Assembly (NCBI GenBank): GCA_000403415.2
Contig: KE159692.1
Span: forward strand, 275,122 to 339,121
Reading direction: 5' to 3'
Source of the DNA: Firmicutes bacterium M10-2
GTDB lineage: Bacteria > Bacillota_I > Bacilli_A > Erysipelotrichales > Erysipelotrichaceae
Length of the DNA stretch: 64,000 bases
The notes under the pieces are model-generated. The model was not told the DNA's origin, ran no database searches, and saw only the letters and a list, made by a program, of their open reading frames with translations. The first letter of the stretch is position 1, and the number at the start of each line of letters is the position of its first letter. The translations under genes were made by a program, and so were the position numbers. This document shows positions 3,558 through 37,167 of the stretch, in pieces.

Positions 3558-4541
3558 ATGAAACGAATGTTAAGTGGGATCAAACCGACCGGACGCCTAC
3601 ATTTAGGAAATTACATTGGCGCGATTTCCCAATTTAAAAAATATCAAGATGAATACGAAATGTTTATATTCATCGCCAACGAGCATGCGATCACCGTACC
3701 GATCGAAGCCAAAGATTTAAGAAAAAACACAAAAGATCTAATTGCTCTTTATTTAGCTTGCGGGCTTGATCCAGAAAAGGTCACCATCTTTCTGCAAAGC
3801 GATGTGCCAGCACATGCACAGCTTGGATGGGTCATGATTTGTATGTCGTATATGGGCGAACTGCAGCGAATGACTCAATATAAAGATAAAACCGCAAAAG
3901 GAGAAACAGGCGTGACTGCCGGACTGTTTACTTATCCCCCACTCATGGCTGCCGATATCCTGTTATATGATCCGGATTATGTTCCTGTCGGAGTCGATCA
4001 AAAACAACATGTCGAACTGACTCGCAACTTGGCGGAACGTTTCAATCATCGCTATTCCGATACATTCAAAATTCCCGAACCGCTAACGACGAAGGTCGGG
4101 CAAAAAATCTTTTCCTTGCAGGATCCGGAAAAGAAAATGTCCAAATCCGCAGCAGATCCGAAAGGAACCATCGATCTGCTTGACGATCCTGCCGCAGCCC
4201 GGAAGAAAATCATGTCAGCAAAGACCGATTCTCTAGGAATCATTCAATTTGACCCAATCAATCAACCGGGTCTTGCGAATTTGTTAACTATTCAATCCGT
4301 ATTGACCAATGAGCCGGTCGAATCAATCGTTTCCCGCTATGAGGGAAAAGGATATGGCGAGCTAAAAAAAGAAATCGGACAAACGGTTTTCGATTTTTTG
4401 AGCAATTTACAGGAAAAATATAATGAAATCCTCAAATCCGGAAAAGTAGAAGAAGTATTAAAGAACGGAGCTGAAAAGGCATCTTATATCGCGAACAAAA
4501 AGATTCGAAAAGTCTATAAAAAAGTAGGCTTCACTCTATGA
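3558..4541 (+). CDS. trpS: Tryptophanyl-tRNA synthetase
   Basis: This class Ic aminoacyl-tRNA synthetase charges tRNA-Trp in the cytosol. The HIGH-type signature is seen as GRLHLGNYIGA near residue 12 and the KMSKS motif is exact near residue 194. The length (327) is normal. The start follows AAGGAGG at 10-nt spacing. A TAGAAT -10-like box lies just upstream. The 130-bp upstream gap is too short for a full T-box leader and none is visible. The stop overlaps the next gene's ATG (ATGA), so the two are translationally coupled. Confidence 0.97.
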   Translation: MKRMLSGIKPTGRLHLGNYIGAISQFKKYQDEYEMFIFIANEHAITVPIEAKDLRKNTKDLIALYLACGLDPEKVTIFLQSDVPAHAQLGWVMICMSYMGELQRMTQYKDKTAKGETGVTAGLFTYPPLMAADILLYDPDYVPVGVDQKQHVELTRNLAERFNHRYSDTFKIPEPLTTKVGQKIFSLQDPEKKMSKSAADPKGTIDLLDDPAAARKKIMSAKTDSLGIIQFDPINQPGLANLLTIQSVLTNEPVESIVSRYEGKGYGELKKEIGQTVFDFLSNLQEKYNEILKSGKVEEVLKNGAEKASYIANKKIRKVYKKVGFTL

Positions 4542-30987: not shown

Positions 30988-32868
30988 TTACCTCACTTTC
31001 TTAAAATCCAAGGATCCATTTGCTCGTGGCACAAAGGCAAAGTTGCCAATTCGCAGGGAATTTAAAAACACGCCGTCATAGATGTACAGCGTGCTGTCTG
31101 AGATATATGCGACCTCTTGATTACCCTGCAAAAAAGATATGCGATCCTTTGCGATTTTGAGCATCTGGTTGTTTCCTTCTTCGCCTAAAAATATGTTTCC
31201 ATCAATGAATCTTATGAACTTAGTGATCGTTGCGAATTCAGCGTTGGTCAAGTTTTGGTTGCTGTCAACCATCTGCTTGAAAGAATTAAAAGACATCTCA
31301 AACGAGTTGTATTTCTGCTCCAAGATCGTTGATGCTTCGGCAATGATCCGATCGGTATCACCTTTAGCGTAATACTGCTGAGCAACTTCATTTTTGATGC
31401 TCTCGCCCGTCTGCGTGATCGCGGTAGACAAGCGCTGTTCCAATTGCGCCGCTGAATTCTGGATCGCTTCATCAATTGAGTTCCTTACAGTAAGAGGTAG
31501 TCCTCTAGCAATTATGCTCATAGGCACCCCCCCCCCGACCAGATCGGCAGGGTTTGGACGATAGTCAAACTCCGTTTGTCCTAAAGTCAGCATGATATTT
31601 CTGACATGTATTTTAGTACCGGCTTTTAAAACGGATCCTATCCTCCGAATTTCAAAATCAATAAAACCACGATAGACGTTATCAAAAATATATGTTGGAC
31701 TAGGAATGTGTACCCCTGTAAATTTAGTTCGGGTAGTCGGTACAGTAAAACCTTGCGCATTAGCATCACAAATATCTCTTAAAATTTGTACATTGGATGC
31801 TCCGGTTGGAAGTTCAGCCCAAGTTTCAAAAGTTAGACGATATCGCGTTAAAGCATAAGGTAAGTTTATCCATTGAAATCTTACATTGGCTAAGCTTGTT
31901 GTATCTTTAGTAACAGTCAAATCGAAACCACCGTCTGACACTACTTTTGAAGTAATGAACGCACTTCTATCATTACCAATTTCCTCCAAAAGCGCCTTTG
32001 ACACTGAAAGAATGTTATACCCCTCTGCATACTCAAATCCGTCCGGCGTCGTTACAATCGGGAGCGTTGGATAATCATTCATAATGAGTACCCCCCCCCG
32101 GTCGAGATTTGAAGGCACGCTAGAGCCAATCACAAAAACATCAGCCTTAACAAGCTCCGTAGTTATATCCGTGTGAGTTGCCGTCGTTAAATTCGCATCA
32201 AGCCACAATCCCATTTGAGAATATTGTGCAGGGACTGTTTGAGTGACTGTTGAAACACCTTCTCCATTTTCAATCACTTGAATAGATTCAGGATAAGTCG
32301 AAACTCGATCATTGCCGGAATTGAACCACTCTATACGAGCACGAAGTTTTTTGCCTGATGTAGATTTGATTCGAACCTGAAACGTTACTATGTCGCCGGC
32401 TTTGATGCCCCAGTCGGAATAAGGCTTTGTGGCCCATGTTGACAATTGTCCACGATACATATCTACGCCTATTCCAGCCCAGTCATCATGATAGGGAATG
32501 AGCGAAAGCGACCCCAGTAACGAAACATCTAATAGCGCGCTATTAGGATTTCGAGCAATCATAAAAGCGACATAAGCTGTTTCAAACTTAAGTGTGTGGT
32601 CTGTAAAATAATTCCATCCTTCTCCAAGTCCTAGATATTTTTTATTTTTATCAAATTCAAGAACCCATATCATCAAACGAGAATTATTGCCTGAAAAAGT
32701 AACTTTTCTATCCGAACTGCAAGAGATTAGTTCTTTTGACCGAACGCGTCTTCCATGAAGCGGATGAGAAGAAGGATCTTTAACCCTTGTTTCATAGTCG
32801 CTCCCAGCTGAAGCATACGGTTCTAATTTGCCTTGTTCAAAGTTCGTTGAATCAATTTTGATTTCCAT
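30988..32868 (-). CDS. Phage tail appendage protein containing two G-tracts
   Basis: 626 residues starting MEIKIDSTNFEQG behind AGGGGTGAGAAT. It has several beta-rich modules, two of them of the type seen before FDYRPNP in phage structural proteins (carbohydrate-binding-like). A helical zone AIQNSAAQLEQRLSTAI follows. The C-terminal LYIYDGVFLNSLRIGNFAFV resembles minor tail proteins. Two runs of G (coding strand) at 32099-32091 and 31536-31527 encode Gly linkers between modules. The first 36 codons of the longer open frame lie within the upstream gene and are rejected. Confidence 0.75.
   Translation of the reverse strand: MEIKIDSTNFEQGKLEPYASAGSDYETRVKDPSSHPLHGRRVRSKELISCSSDRKVTFSGNNSRLMIWVLEFDKNKKYLGLGEGWNYFTDHTLKFETAYVAFMIARNPNSALLDVSLLGSLSLIPYHDDWAGIGVDMYRGQLSTWATKPYSDWGIKAGDIVTFQVRIKSTSGKKLRARIEWFNSGNDRVSTYPESIQVIENGEGVSTVTQTVPAQYSQMGLWLDANLTTATHTDITTELVKADVFVIGSSVPSNLDRGGVLIMNDYPTLPIVTTPDGFEYAEGYNILSVSKALLEEIGNDRSAFITSKVVSDGGFDLTVTKDTTSLANVRFQWINLPYALTRYRLTFETWAELPTGASNVQILRDICDANAQGFTVPTTRTKFTGVHIPSPTYIFDNVYRGFIDFEIRRIGSVLKAGTKIHVRNIMLTLGQTEFDYRPNPADLVGGGVPMSIIARGLPLTVRNSIDEAIQNSAAQLEQRLSTAITQTGESIKNEVAQQYYAKGDTDRIIAEASTILEQKYNSFEMSFNSFKQMVDSNQNLTNAEFATITKFIRFIDGNIFLGEEGNNQMLKIAKDRISFLQGNQEVAYISDSTLYIYDGVFLNSLRIGNFAFVPRANGSLDFKKVR
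31527..31536 (-). repeat. G10 tract in tail gene (slippage site)
   Basis: Ten Gs on the coding strand encode the GGG of DLVGGGVPM. An in-frame ATG lies 6 nt after the tract. One base lost gives TGA overlapping that ATG (ATGA); one gained gives TAG within eight codons. Confidence 0.8.
32091..32099 (-). repeat. G9 tract in tail gene (slippage site)
   Basis: Nine Gs encode the end of LDRGGVLIM. An in-frame ATG lies 8 nt after the tract. Loss or gain of one base leads to a TGA at or beside that ATG. Confidence 0.8.
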
Positions 32869-32882
32869 ATTCTCACCCCTTT

Positions 32883-34019
32883 CTAGTTCTCCAGCGTCGC
32901 ATAGACTTCTTTCGGAGCCGTAAGCGTCAAAGTCTTTCCTGTTGCGATCGCCGCAGCCACTCCGACCTGATACCACTTAATTGCGCCGTATCGACCTACC
33001 TCGGAATCGGTCAGCTCTTTTCCGCCTTTAAAGATCTTCGCCGTGATAGTGATCGACTTTACGGTGTCTGTAAATTCGAATCCGGTTGGCGTGTCGTAGA
33101 CGATCGTAAAAGCATCTATTCCATCATTGATTCGGGTTAGGGAAATTGATGCTGTCGCTTTAGTGCTCATACAACCGACCCCCCCCCCGCAAATTTGGGT
33201 GATTTCTGAAGGTGTAATTGTTGGGTCGCCATCTTTTTTAAAGATTAGCGCGATTTGTGTTGTGCGAGGATCCAGATCGTGCCACTTATCTTCTGACTGC
33301 CATCCTGTATACACACCTAAATACTTTTCGTTGTTAAACTCTAAAATAAAATATGAATAGCACTGATTGATGTGGACTGCAATCTTCTCAGCGTTAACAG
33401 GAATTAAATATTTCGAGCGGATGCGATTATTCCAATTCGATTTCATACCTTCATAAGAGGAATTATTGGGGGCATTTTCACTAGCCGTACCCTGCTCAAA
33501 CATATCTTCATCTAGCATATACGCTGGATTATCCAATGGATTTACTGAATAATCTGTTGCTTCAGCTCCAAACTCTGCTTTTGGGTAGCCGATGATCCAA
33601 GTTGCATTATTTTCACTATTCGGCTTGCAGGTCGCTTGCATTCTTACTTCTACTCCAACCAAGCCAGCTGTAGGTTTCCCAGCTGGCCGGGTTATGGTGT
33701 AAGTCGCTTTTACCCTTTCATCTTTTCCCCAGCTCGAAAGAAGTGCCGTGCTTTGATATGTCGTACTCTTTGTGCCGTCTGTGTCCTCCCAAAATTCTGT
33801 TGTATGCATGCCAAATCGGCCGACCATATCAGAAGAGCTGGGAAGGGCTTCGCTTCCTCCTGAAGATTTCACATAAACGGAAAGCGTGATTGTTTTTCCG
33901 ATTATTTCGTCTGAAACGTCTTGCATATTAAAATTGGCATAGACTGGCGAGGTTGTCGATTTTGTCAATGAATAGCACTTTGCTGTATTCCGCAACAAGT
34001 TTTTATTTACAATCTTCAT
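32883..34019 (-). CDS. Phage minor tail protein containing a G-tract
   Basis: 378 residues. N-terminal beta-rich carbohydrate-binding-like module (NLLRNTAKCYS... to FGAEATDYSVNPLDN), a short central domain, and a C-terminal Ig-like module (DTPTGFEFTDTVKSITITAKIFKGGKELTDSEV). The latter resembles the C-terminal module of the preceding tail endopeptidase (TTVVGTGATLSVNQP). A G10 tract at 33188-33179 encodes ICGGGVGCM. It begins 1 bp after the endopeptidase stop. Probably part of the tail tip. Confidence 0.7.
   Translation of the reverse strand: MKIVNKNLLRNTAKCYSLTKSTTSPVYANFNMQDVSDEIIGKTITLSVYVKSSGGSEALPSSSDMVGRFGMHTTEFWEDTDGTKSTTYQSTALLSSWGKDERVKATYTITRPAGKPTAGLVGVEVRMQATCKPNSENNATWIIGYPKAEFGAEATDYSVNPLDNPAYMLDEDMFEQGTASENAPNNSSYEGMKSNWNNRIRSKYLIPVNAEKIAVHINQCYSYFILEFNNEKYLGVYTGWQSEDKWHDLDPRTTQIALIFKKDGDPTITPSEITQICGGGVGCMSTKATASISLTRINDGIDAFTIVYDTPTGFEFTDTVKSITITAKIFKGGKELTDSEVGRYGAIKWYQVGVAAAIATGKTLTLTAPKEVYATLEN
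33179..33188 (-). repeat. G10 tract in tail gene (slippage site)
   Basis: Ten Gs on the coding strand, in frame, followed after 8 nt by an in-frame ATG (GTCGGTTGTATGAGC). Loss of one base creates GTATGA, placing a stop over the ATG; gain of one reaches TAA in eight codons. Confidence 0.8.
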
Positions 34020-34020
34020 A

Positions 34021-37000
34021 TTATCCCTCCAATCTCACGGTGTAGTTTGCTGTCGCTACGCTTACCGGCTGATTGACACTTAAAGTTGCGCCGGTTCCGA
34101 CCACAGTCGTCGATCCATTAAGGTACCACTTCAAAGCTCCTTCTGCCGAAATCTGTGCCGCACTCAATTCAATACCGCCTTTGAATACATGAGCTGTCAG
34201 CGTCGTGACAATCGGCGTATTTTTGAAAACTGTGCCGTTGGTCGTCGTGATCTGAATCGTGATCGCATCCTTGCCTGAAACCCCTTGTGCGCCAGGACTG
34301 CCAGTCATCCGCACAGGGCTTGTCTCTGAGGTCGATCCGTCCACATACGTGATTTTATCTTTAATCCAGATATATTTTCCTGCTGTTTCCGCTGGCTTGG
34401 TCGTACTCCAAGACCCGCCTGTGCATGTCGTTTCTGACGTAGAAAGATAGTAGTAACGCTCTTGCTTTTGGCTGGTCAAAGAATTCACTTTATTCGAAAC
34501 CTGAGTAACCGTCTGTGAGATCTGATTTGCTTTGACCGTGATCTGAGAATCCGCATAGTCTTTTGCGCCTTGAATGGCGGTGCTCACTTCCGTCTTTGTT
34601 GCTCTCAAATTGATCGCCTGCGAGTTCTGCGTGATCGCCGTTTCGGCTAATGAGACTCGGCTCGTCAGCCCGTCGATATCATCCTGGATATCGCTGATCT
34701 GCCCTTGTGCTAATGCAATATCTTTTTTCGCTTGATTGACATCGGCTTGAGCCTTATTAACAGCTTGCTGAGCAGTGCTTAGCGCTGTTTTCGCTGCGTC
34801 GAGCTGTTCCGCCGTTGTGGCCTGATCATTCTCAAGTGCTGCTACTGCGTCCTGCGCCGCTTTCAGGTCCGCCTCGGCTTTTGTCAGCTTTTGACTGGCT
34901 TCGCTCTGTGCCGATTGCAGACTGCTCAAGTTATTTTGGGCCGCCGTCAATGCGCTGCTCTGCTTGACCAGTTCAGCATCGATCGCATCCTTGTTTTGTT
35001 GGTACTCCGTGTTCGACACCTTGCTTTTCAGGCCATCCGCATTCGCTGTGATCTGAGTCTGCAAATCGCCCTCGATGTCAGACATTTCGGCCTTGGTTGC
35101 GTAGGTTCCAGATATGTCCACAAGGATTTGTTCTGTCGCGTCGGCTACGTCTTTTTTTGCTTCGGCGGCCGCATCTTTGGCTTCTTGGATCCCGGTCTTG
35201 ATCGGCTCGATTTCCTTTTCGATGTCCTGCGCTTTGCTCAGCGCATCACCCGCCTGCTTTACGGCATCTTGGGCACTTTGGCTTGCGTCACTTGCGCTTG
35301 TCGCTGCCTGATTGGCGGTGTCGATTGCCTGCAGCGTAGCGCTCCATGTGCCGTCAAGCTCAGGATCAGAGTAAGCGATGGCATCCGGGTTTTTATAGAC
35401 AGCCTTAAACCGCACCCAAAGATATTTAGCTGCATCAAATGTCGGTAGAGTAGCGCTCCATGATCCGCCCTCTTGAGCTGTGTTGCTGGTCGACATGTAA
35501 AATTCCCTCGTCATGCTCACGAGAGACTGCCCATCATCGCCTCGGATTTTGACCCATGTATAATCACTCACAAGCTCGGAATCTGCCTCCAGATGATCGC
35601 TATACGTCCCCATCCATTTGCCTTCTGTCTTGCCGTTGTTTCCGGTAAAGGTCTGGCCTCCATCGTTAGAGTATCGGATATGCAGATAGAGAGGATCGGC
35701 GGCAACGCCATCATGCACATTCGTCAGCGTGACCTCGGCCCGTGCGTACACCTTGCCGCCTTTGGCCGCCTCAAAACCATATACGGCCTGCGCACCAAAA
35801 TCGCCGGAAGAAACCGTGATATTTTTTGTTGTAGCGATCTGTGTTCCGTCTTTCTTCCAAACAATCTGATACTGGCTGGCTATATCGACTACACCATCAA
35901 TGACCTGCGCGGTCAGCGTCGTGGATCCTGTGTCATTGACAAACTGGATCCCGTTATCCGACATGATCTGCCCGATGTATACCTTGTTTTCTTTGATCAA
36001 GGCTTCGACACGAGCCATCAAAGAGGTGTCGATTTCAGACTTCAAAACTTCAATATTGCTATAAATTGTCTTGTTCCTTGATTCATCCGTGATACTTCGC
36101 ACCTGCTCCGTAACACGTGCTTCTAAATAAAGAATAGGATTATATTCTTCATCTGTGATCCGCACTGTATCGCCGATTCCGGTATCCGCATAGCCGTCAA
36201 TCTCATAAGTGACTTTCGGCGTACAATTCTTCTTTAATTCAGCCAGCGCTCGACCATATAACATTTCCTTGTCCGTAACATCGCAGTCCCAATGGACTAA
36301 AATGTAGCGGTCATTTGACTGCGACATAAAACTCGGAAACCGATCACGAGCGAGAGGCGCACGGATCAATGCACCATCCGTAAAATATTCGACTCTTCCG
36401 TCTTTGTCTTTTACAGTGTGGCTGACCCCGGATATATCAATCTTGGAATCGCTGCCTTCGATCGTCCCTCCATGCGGATAGATACAGGTATACAGATCCG
36501 TGATATCGCTTGTTTTCTTGATCCCTTTGATCTCCCGGCCGTACACAAGGTTAGAGACATTCGCTTTTCCAATGCCTTGTACGGTGTCGGAATGCGCACG
36601 ATATACGTTCATAACGATCTTATTCATGGAGTAATCCTGATTGAGCTGCGGCACGAATTCCAGCTCTGCATCAAATACGTTTGCTAAAGAGTACAAACGA
36701 GAAAGGACGGTATTTTCACCGTCCCATTTGTTCTTTATTTGCTTGTCTGACACCTCGTTTAAGCCGATCTGTACCGTGTTTTCAGGATCAAACTGATTCT
36801 TATACCACACAAAAGAATGCGCCTCTCCTGGATCGATTCCTGCGACCTGCTCGTTCAAAAGCTCCAAATTCGTTGACCACGCTTCGACTTCGACCACGTC
36901 CTCGTCCCGGTGCAAAATCATAATGTTGAGATAGTAATCGCGTCGGTCCGTGCGGAATGCGATCTTGTATCCCTCAACGAGATGCAAGGAGTCCGGATGC

Positions 37001-37167
37001 TTGGCGTCAGTCTTGAACGTAAAAGTATTACTTGTACCTTCCAGATACTCGTGTAATTCGTCATCCCAAAACGGAAGGCCATCAGGCACGTCATTATCGA
37101 GGAAGCCCACGACCGTATCGTTCTGGTCGAGGATCGCGATTCGTGATGTAAGTTTGATCATAGCCAT
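34021..37167 (-). CDS. Tail endopeptidase / tail-associated lysin-type protein (Tal)
   Basis: 1048 residues. The first 370 (MIKLTSRIAILDQNDTVVGF, then YLNIMILHRDEDVVEVEAWS) match the phage tail endopeptidase/gp44-like hub that follows Dit in siphoviruses. Residues 620-900 are a long coiled coil rich in Ala, Gln and Lys. The C-terminus carries Ig-like modules. It overlaps the Dit gene by 10 bp. It would form the tail tip hub to which the following appendage proteins attach. Confidence 0.85.
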   Translation of the reverse strand: MAMIKLTSRIAILDQNDTVVGFLDNDVPDGLPFWDDELHEYLEGTSNTFTFKTDAKHPDSLHLVEGYKIAFRTDRRDYYLNIMILHRDEDVVEVEAWSTNLELLNEQVAGIDPGEAHSFVWYKNQFDPENTVQIGLNEVSDKQIKNKWDGENTVLSRLYSLANVFDAELEFVPQLNQDYSMNKIVMNVYRAHSDTVQGIGKANVSNLVYGREIKGIKKTSDITDLYTCIYPHGGTIEGSDSKIDISGVSHTVKDKDGRVEYFTDGALIRAPLARDRFPSFMSQSNDRYILVHWDCDVTDKEMLYGRALAELKKNCTPKVTYEIDGYADTGIGDTVRITDEEYNPILYLEARVTEQVRSITDESRNKTIYSNIEVLKSEIDTSLMARVEALIKENKVYIGQIMSDNGIQFVNDTGSTTLTAQVIDGVVDIASQYQIVWKKDGTQIATTKNITVSSGDFGAQAVYGFEAAKGGKVYARAEVTLTNVHDGVAADPLYLHIRYSNDGGQTFTGNNGKTEGKWMGTYSDHLEADSELVSDYTWVKIRGDDGQSLVSMTREFYMSTSNTAQEGGSWSATLPTFDAAKYLWVRFKAVYKNPDAIAYSDPELDGTWSATLQAIDTANQAATSASDASQSAQDAVKQAGDALSKAQDIEKEIEPIKTGIQEAKDAAAEAKKDVADATEQILVDISGTYATKAEMSDIEGDLQTQITANADGLKSKVSNTEYQQNKDAIDAELVKQSSALTAAQNNLSSLQSAQSEASQKLTKAEADLKAAQDAVAALENDQATTAEQLDAAKTALSTAQQAVNKAQADVNQAKKDIALAQGQISDIQDDIDGLTSRVSLAETAITQNSQAINLRATKTEVSTAIQGAKDYADSQITVKANQISQTVTQVSNKVNSLTSQKQERYYYLSTSETTCTGGSWSTTKPAETAGKYIWIKDKITYVDGSTSETSPVRMTGSPGAQGVSGKDAITIQITTTNGTVFKNTPIVTTLTAHVFKGGIELSAAQISAEGALKWYLNGSTTVVGTGATLSVNQPVSVATANYTVRLEG

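Follow-up and report, generated by a model that had tools for sequence, protein, structure and literature searches.

A prophage in Firmicutes bacterium M10-2 carries three long runs of guanine within its tail genes, each of which lies at the joint of two protein modules and shortly ahead of an internal ATG. We analysed a 64-kb stretch of DNA from contig KE159692.1 that contains these genes (hereafter called the window), taken from a host genome of 2,407,520 bases. All prophage tail genes in this region are encoded on the minus strand, and the tracts appear as C-runs on the plus strand and as G-runs in the sense direction. Below, they are referred to as T1, T2 and T3 (Table 1).

G-tracts and modules at the tail locus

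As the initial annotation had reported, the three tracts comprise 10, 9 and 10 guanines, respectively, and each of them is in frame in the sequenced DNA. They are the only G- or C-runs of at least seven nucleotides (nt) in the window. The whole genome contains just four G-runs of nine or more, three of which are T1-T3, situated within 1.7 kb of tail-tip genes. Being pure coding repeats that are rare in their genome, T1-T3 resemble simple-repeat contingency loci. The fourth run (L001:9753-9761; G000:C1:365752-365760) is found at the ribosome-binding site of a response-regulator gene that adjoins genes for a histidine kinase and an ABC transporter, where a change in its length could tune expression.

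Each tract is followed by an in-frame ATG, at a distance of 8, 8 and 5 nt, so that the predicted start codons are present but the predicted spacing of 6-8 nt does not hold throughout. Removal of a single G places a TGA at position +1 of this ATG in all three cases, which creates an exact ATGA stop-start overlap, and addition of a single G leads to a stop codon 8 (T1), 5 (T2) or 14 nt (T3) past the A of the ATG. Both outcomes agree with the initial proposal that the loss of one base would put a TGA on or next to the ATG and the gain of one base would end translation within about eight codons. In six tail genes, 1.05% of random positions are followed, 5-8 nt downstream, by an in-frame ATG with a subsequent A; three such cases would have a probability of ~1e-6, an estimate whose criteria were set after the case had been seen. 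Since GGG accounts for only 70 of the 417 glycine codons in 11 phage genes of the window, codon use does not account for the pure G-runs. A chance origin of the tracts was ruled out based on their genome-wide rarity, the register of the ATGA motif and the length polymorphism described below.

The tracts could also act as Shine-Dalgarno sequences, as had been suggested. The calculated energies of their duplexes with what we take to be the tail sequence of the 16S rRNA (-10.9, -11.5 and -11.5) equal those of real gene starts nearby, given that ten starts of the region yielded values between -7.5 and -11.8 and random positions a mean of -2.7. In the split state, all three tracts would display the layout of a coupled gene pair, with a stop-start overlap and a Shine-Dalgarno sequence at the proper distance.

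The tracts interrupt two open reading frames (ORFs) downstream of a Tal-like gene. The Tal-like protein covers positions 8-873 of the 955 positions of phrog_588 ('tail fiber protein and host specificity'), and the C-terminal part of the 626-amino-acid (aa) ORF, for which an alternative GTG start is listed at 32976, matches positions 853-938 of the same profile, taking it up where Tal stops. Moreover, a viral contig whose product is 52% identical to Tal (L073) encodes Tal and the C-terminal domain in one 1361-aa chain. Because of this division of phrog_588 and the single chain in L073, the tract region looks like a set of extra modules inserted into what is a single continuous chain in other phages. 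The 95-aa immunoglobulin (Ig)-like module at the end of the 378-aa ORF matches a tail family (phrog_3267, E 8.9e-5), and no significant Pfam match was obtained for the modules of the window. The predicted structure of the 626-aa protein is poor, with a mean predicted local distance difference test (pLDDT) score of 43.7. T2 and T3 are placed at pLDDT values of ~22-29 between predicted strand-rich parts, an arrangement that would fit linkers but proves nothing.

Table 1. Features of the prophage tail locus, in window coordinates.
Feature	Positions	Strand	Basis
Tal-like tail protein, 1048 aa, upstream of the putative switch region	34021..37167	-	Pfam Prophage_tail E 1.7e-9; phrog_588
378-aa ORF: N-terminal module (~276 aa), T1, 95-aa Ig-like module	32883..34019	-	ORF list
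T1, G10, in frame as sequenced	33179..33188	-	sequence
ATG of internal ATGA start, 8 nt past T1	33168..33170	-	sequence
626-aa ORF: module 1, T2, module 2, T3, C-terminal domain	30988..32868	-	ORF list
Module 1, 256 aa, tail-fibre-like	32101..32868	-	phrog_24919 tail fiber, E 5.1e-8
T2, G9, in frame as sequenced	32091..32099	-	sequence, relatives
ATG of internal ATGA start, 8 nt past T2	32080..32082	-	sequence
Module 2, 181 aa, different module in its place in L066	31540..32082	-	protein comparison
T3, G10, in frame as sequenced	31527..31536	-	sequence, relatives
ATG of internal ATGA start, 5 nt past T3	31519..31521	-	sequence
C-terminal domain, common among phage tail proteins	30991..31521	-	136 relatives in viral contigs
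Next tail gene, 754 aa	28717..30981	-	DUF859 E 1.7e-38, Gp10_C E 5.3e-17

Tract length, reading frame and module exchange in related phages

Using the Tal protein as a query, we identified eight related contigs in a viral collection. No relatives were retrieved when viral contigs were scanned with the 626-aa or the 378-aa protein, and one match from the viral scan (L076) proved to be unrelated. A DNA scan of genome contigs with the T3 flank returned 14 stretches, one of which (L083) was inspected and found to be unrelated, with the 13 others set aside on their titles. T2 and T3 are carried by five of the eight contigs, which represent three lineages: L066/L067/L068 (>99.9% identical), L070 and L071. 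The tract-ATGA layout, for which a search among related phages had been recommended, is thus present in these contigs at both positions, with the ATGA motif retained in every copy of T2 and T3 examined. The three remaining contigs show no G-run of at least seven nt; L069 and L072 do not reach as far as the joint, and L073 extends beyond it.

The length of the tracts differs between lineages. T2 is a G8 run in L066-L068 and L071 and a G9 run in L070. T3, a G10 run with a 5-nt spacer in the window, is followed by a 6-nt spacer in these five contigs and comprises 10 guanines in L066-L068, 9 in L070 and 11 in L071. As a result, the modules of L070 are fused at both tracts, and those of L071 are split via ATGA at both. 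In L066-L068, T2 is split via ATGA and T3 is in the third frame, with a stop codon 14 nt past the ATG. According to the initial annotation, slippage at the tracts would produce either one fused or two coupled products, and an invariant length or a lack of the tracts in close relatives would argue against this idea. T2 and T3 are in fact present and variable, and their length shifts the modules between the fused frame and the ATGA split frame. By contrast, a strict two-state switch is at odds with the third frame in L066-L068, and T1 has no counterpart in the relatives, whose Ig-like last module sits at the end of Tal itself.

L070 and L071 are the closest pair in this comparison. Over the 436 codons of modules 1 and 2 (255 and 181, respectively), the synonymous divergence (dS) between them is 0, and the nonsynonymous divergence (dN) amounts to 0.005 in module 1 and 0.002 in module 2. 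Despite the lack of synonymous change, T2 (G9 versus G8) and T3 (G9 versus G11) both differ in length, leaving the modules fused in one phage and split in the other. Hence, the repeat number at T2 and T3 differs, with a change of frame, even between very close relatives, whereas the fixed length and frame that characterise a site of programmed frameshifting or transcriptional slippage are not seen. Outside the tracts, the window and L070 agree at only 83 of 186 comparable four-fold degenerate sites and 14 of 32 glycine codons, yet the tracts remain pure G. Taken together, these sequence comparisons lend good support to the notion that the tracts are hypermutable. The downstream modules are open and under purifying selection in the split and third-frame phages, with a dN of 0.062 and a dS of 0.382 for the C-terminal domain of L066 and L071.

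The tracts also coincide with breaks in sequence similarity. The four lineages share almost the same sequence over ~20 nt ahead of T3 and ~30 nt past it. L066 and L071 share 234 of 255 aa in module 1 and 164 of 177 aa in the C-terminal domain but only 48 of 164 aa in module 2, and module 2 of the window is identical to its counterparts at 52 of 163 aa in L066 versus 106 of 180 aa in L071. Similarly, the identity between L070 and L071 drops from ~100% before T3 to about 48-50% within ~100 nt downstream. As seen in these alignments, the tracts mark sites at which whole modules were exchanged between phages.

Occurrence of tract-ATGA junctions elsewhere

The C-terminal domain is found far beyond the phages that carry tracts. 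Among the best 80 of its 136 loci in viral contigs (1,003,595 bases scanned), we detected 11 G-runs of eight or more and no C-run of this length; ten of them are the T2 and T3 copies of the five contigs, and one lies elsewhere in L161. No tract is present at the joint in the remaining 75 loci. In all of these except L095 and L165, the latter at a contig edge, 80 or more codons are open ahead of the C-terminal domain. Since 75 of the best 80 loci lack it, the tract is, judged from these contigs, a trait of this lineage rather than of the C-terminal domain.

Scanning for G10 with a subsequent ATGA, we first obtained at least 120 stretches, with 121 sites among the matches listed. At 31 of these sites, at least 60 codons are open on both sides, and 13 of the 31 show an exact ATGA overlap. 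Ten of these 13 cases were annotated: one is a tail protein (L201), two involve DNA methyltransferases (L254 and L204), and the rest are other or unknown proteins. In L254:1402-2684 (IMGVR_UViG_3300011002_000002), G10 and ATGA part a ParB-like nuclease from a DNA methyltransferase. The split falls between positions 217 and 222 of phrog_498, which is one protein, and this junction may be a hinge that fuses or splits a modification gene of the phage. The matches listed for a second scan comprise 77 sites in L294-L369 (22 open on both sides, 5 with ATGA) and 17 further sites in L370-L384, one of which is open on both sides.

Two of the sites lie in other tail genes. In L201, read further as L385, and in L359, chosen by eye from its module end, a module ending in AAWAPAEGEALSV or AAWAPADGESLA is followed by G11 or G9, ATGA and another module. 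In both cases, a comparable tail module thus ends at the tract, with the junction split in L201/L385 (G11) and in the third frame in L359 (G9). Both contigs stem from metagenome 3300021255 and are hence weaker as independent cases. The module ahead of the tract in L359 belongs to CBM_4_9 (E 2.4e-8) and is ~34% identical to carbohydrate-binding modules of Lactococcus and Streptococcus phage tails, some of which are annotated as antireceptor or receptor binding protein. For the 152-aa module of L385, we obtained no Pfam or PHROG match and no match in phage records. L385 (minus strand; IMGVR_UViG_3300021255_001119) contains runs of 9-11 guanines at 4230, 4654 and 7724, each at the end of a tail gene.

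The pattern of a W-x-P-A module end followed by G8 occurs in none of 392 genomes, but it also misses the modules of the window and is therefore no test of them. A G9 run within 9 nt of an ATG occurs in 33 of 272 genomes of the host's family, and the 30 loci returned represent mixed contexts. In genome G041 (L059:10697-10703), a Tal-like ORF of 978 codons closes with a G7 run followed by TAATG, and G8 would add ~49 codons. Six viral contigs (L175, L178, L194, L231, L282 and L289) have in common an ACAA-G10-N6-ATGA motif, followed by a small ORF whose frame overlaps. Moreover, the contigs L173 and L238 share a nearly identical junction, CCTCGATGACTGAG, after G10 and G12, respectively, which puts it in different frames.

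A proposed mutable hinge between tail modules and its alternatives

Collectively, our findings suggest that each G-run is probably a contingency hinge at the joint of two tail-tip modules, which toggles receptor-binding-type modules between a fused and a separate state. The observed changes in length would arise through slippage during DNA copying. At one length, the two modules would be translated as a single polypeptide. After the loss of one G, or the gain of two, the upstream module would stop on the TGA of the ATGA motif and the downstream module would start at its ATG, with the G-run acting as its Shine-Dalgarno sequence, so that both modules would still be made, as separate products with coupled translation. 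Assuming that both forms are produced and used, three such hinges in series could present the binding-type modules linked or separate and thereby vary the tail tip, and with it receptor binding, at a high rate.

Several observations weigh against this proposal. The tract lengths represent a single consensus per contig, only three lineages with tracts are available beside the window, and T1 has no relative for comparison. T3 of L066-L068 is in a frame that yields neither the fused nor the ATGA state, most loci with the same C-terminal domain do without a tract, and two further G9 runs in L385 cannot be fused to the next gene at any length from -2 to +2. In addition, the 7.6 kb of tail genes shared by L070 and L071 (95.7% identical) differ by three indels at a high gap penalty, namely an in-frame 9-nt one, T2 and T3, but show 12 gap openings in blastn. 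The indel count thus depends on the alignment and dS does not, so that the case for hypermutability rests on the stretch with a dS of 0.

It is conceivable that the tracts are simply strong Shine-Dalgarno sequences at ATGA junctions, which do slip but whose fused and separate products assemble equally well, such that length drifts and nothing is regulated. In line with this idea, G-runs with ATGA also join phage genes unrelated to tails, a handful of lineages already displays all three frames, and the fourth G9 run of the genome lies at an ordinary ribosome-binding site. We nevertheless consider neutral drift unlikely, because in the window and L070 the run is buried in a long ORF, a position that calls for no Shine-Dalgarno sequence, yet it has stayed pure while synonymous sites nearby are saturated, and because three of the four long G-runs of the genome cluster in tail-tip genes. 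Programmed recoding, in which the ribosome or RNA polymerase slips at a set rate and every virion receives both forms at any tract length, appears improbable. Long G-runs are expected to be slippery for ribosomes, and the ATGA layout is compatible with two products, but such sites are usually fixed in length and frame, both of which differ here in near-identical phages.

The exchange of modules raises the question of whether the short conserved stretch mainly provides homology for recombination, with length change as a side effect. The near-identity of the T3 surroundings in four lineages, beyond which module 2 (L066) or the C-terminal domain (L070) has been replaced, is consistent with such a role. 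As homology requires neither a pure G-run nor an ATGA motif in register, it is very unlikely to be the primary explanation, and it is compatible with the tracts also being contingency hinges. Errors in homopolymer sequencing or assembly, finally, are hardly credible as the source of the length variation. Each contig provides only one consensus, L066 and L067 differ by two substitutions directly after T3, and the Tal ORFs of L067 and L069 are broken; however, T2 is a G8 run in three separate metagenome contigs, the junctions in the window, L070 and L071 are intact and sensible, and errors do not account for the presence of long G-runs ahead of ATGA.

If the tracts are indeed contingency hinges, the nearest precedent we found is cj0031/cj0032 of Campylobacter jejuni, a multidomain gene with domains on both sides of a G9 tract, in which indels part the gene into two frames; this locus encodes a restriction-modification enzyme of the bacterial chromosome that is either ON or OFF (PMC4889913). 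The phage tracts differ from it in that they are arranged in tandem, connect tail modules and combine ATGA with a well-placed Shine-Dalgarno sequence, which leads us to predict that the split form is ON and yields two proteins. Simple-sequence contingency loci (poly-G/poly-C or poly-A) likewise involve homopolymers, length polymorphism and surface-exposed products, but they vary the bacterial surface, including phage receptors, whereas here it would be the receptor-binding side of the phage (PMC10877375, PMC3711429). The GeneTack study, in its account of gene clusters that form one ORF in some genomes and two in others, with the second start near the first stop, assigns a case to either phase variation or coupling (PMC3711429); the phage tract would combine both at one site. 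A variable C-homopolymer is mentioned for a Pseudomonas phage, where it occupies an intergenic position (PMC5114362). In the literature searched, we found no report of a poly-G tract that fuses or splits phage tail modules. Phages also vary receptor binding by means of diversity-generating retroelements and invertible tail genes. Unlike these devices, a hinge of the kind proposed here would need no reverse transcriptase, template repeat or invertase.

It is tempting to speculate, although we regard this broader scenario as rather doubtful, that phages have repeatedly evolved poly-G hinges at the joints of receptor-binding modules, which might serve as ribosome-binding site, hypermutable fuse/split switch and recombination joint at once, with populations mixing tail tips that differ in the number of linked modules. 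If the hinge reading is correct, raw reads of induced prophages and viromes should contain mixed tract lengths, and it would become clear why the annotation of such a tail protein can show a single gene in one phage and three genes in a near twin. Bacteria use poly-G phase variation to vary their surface, often to escape phages. The phage would then resort to this inexpensive device to vary the receptor-binding tip of its own tail, with both states predicted to be productive, as a mirror image of its host in the arms race.

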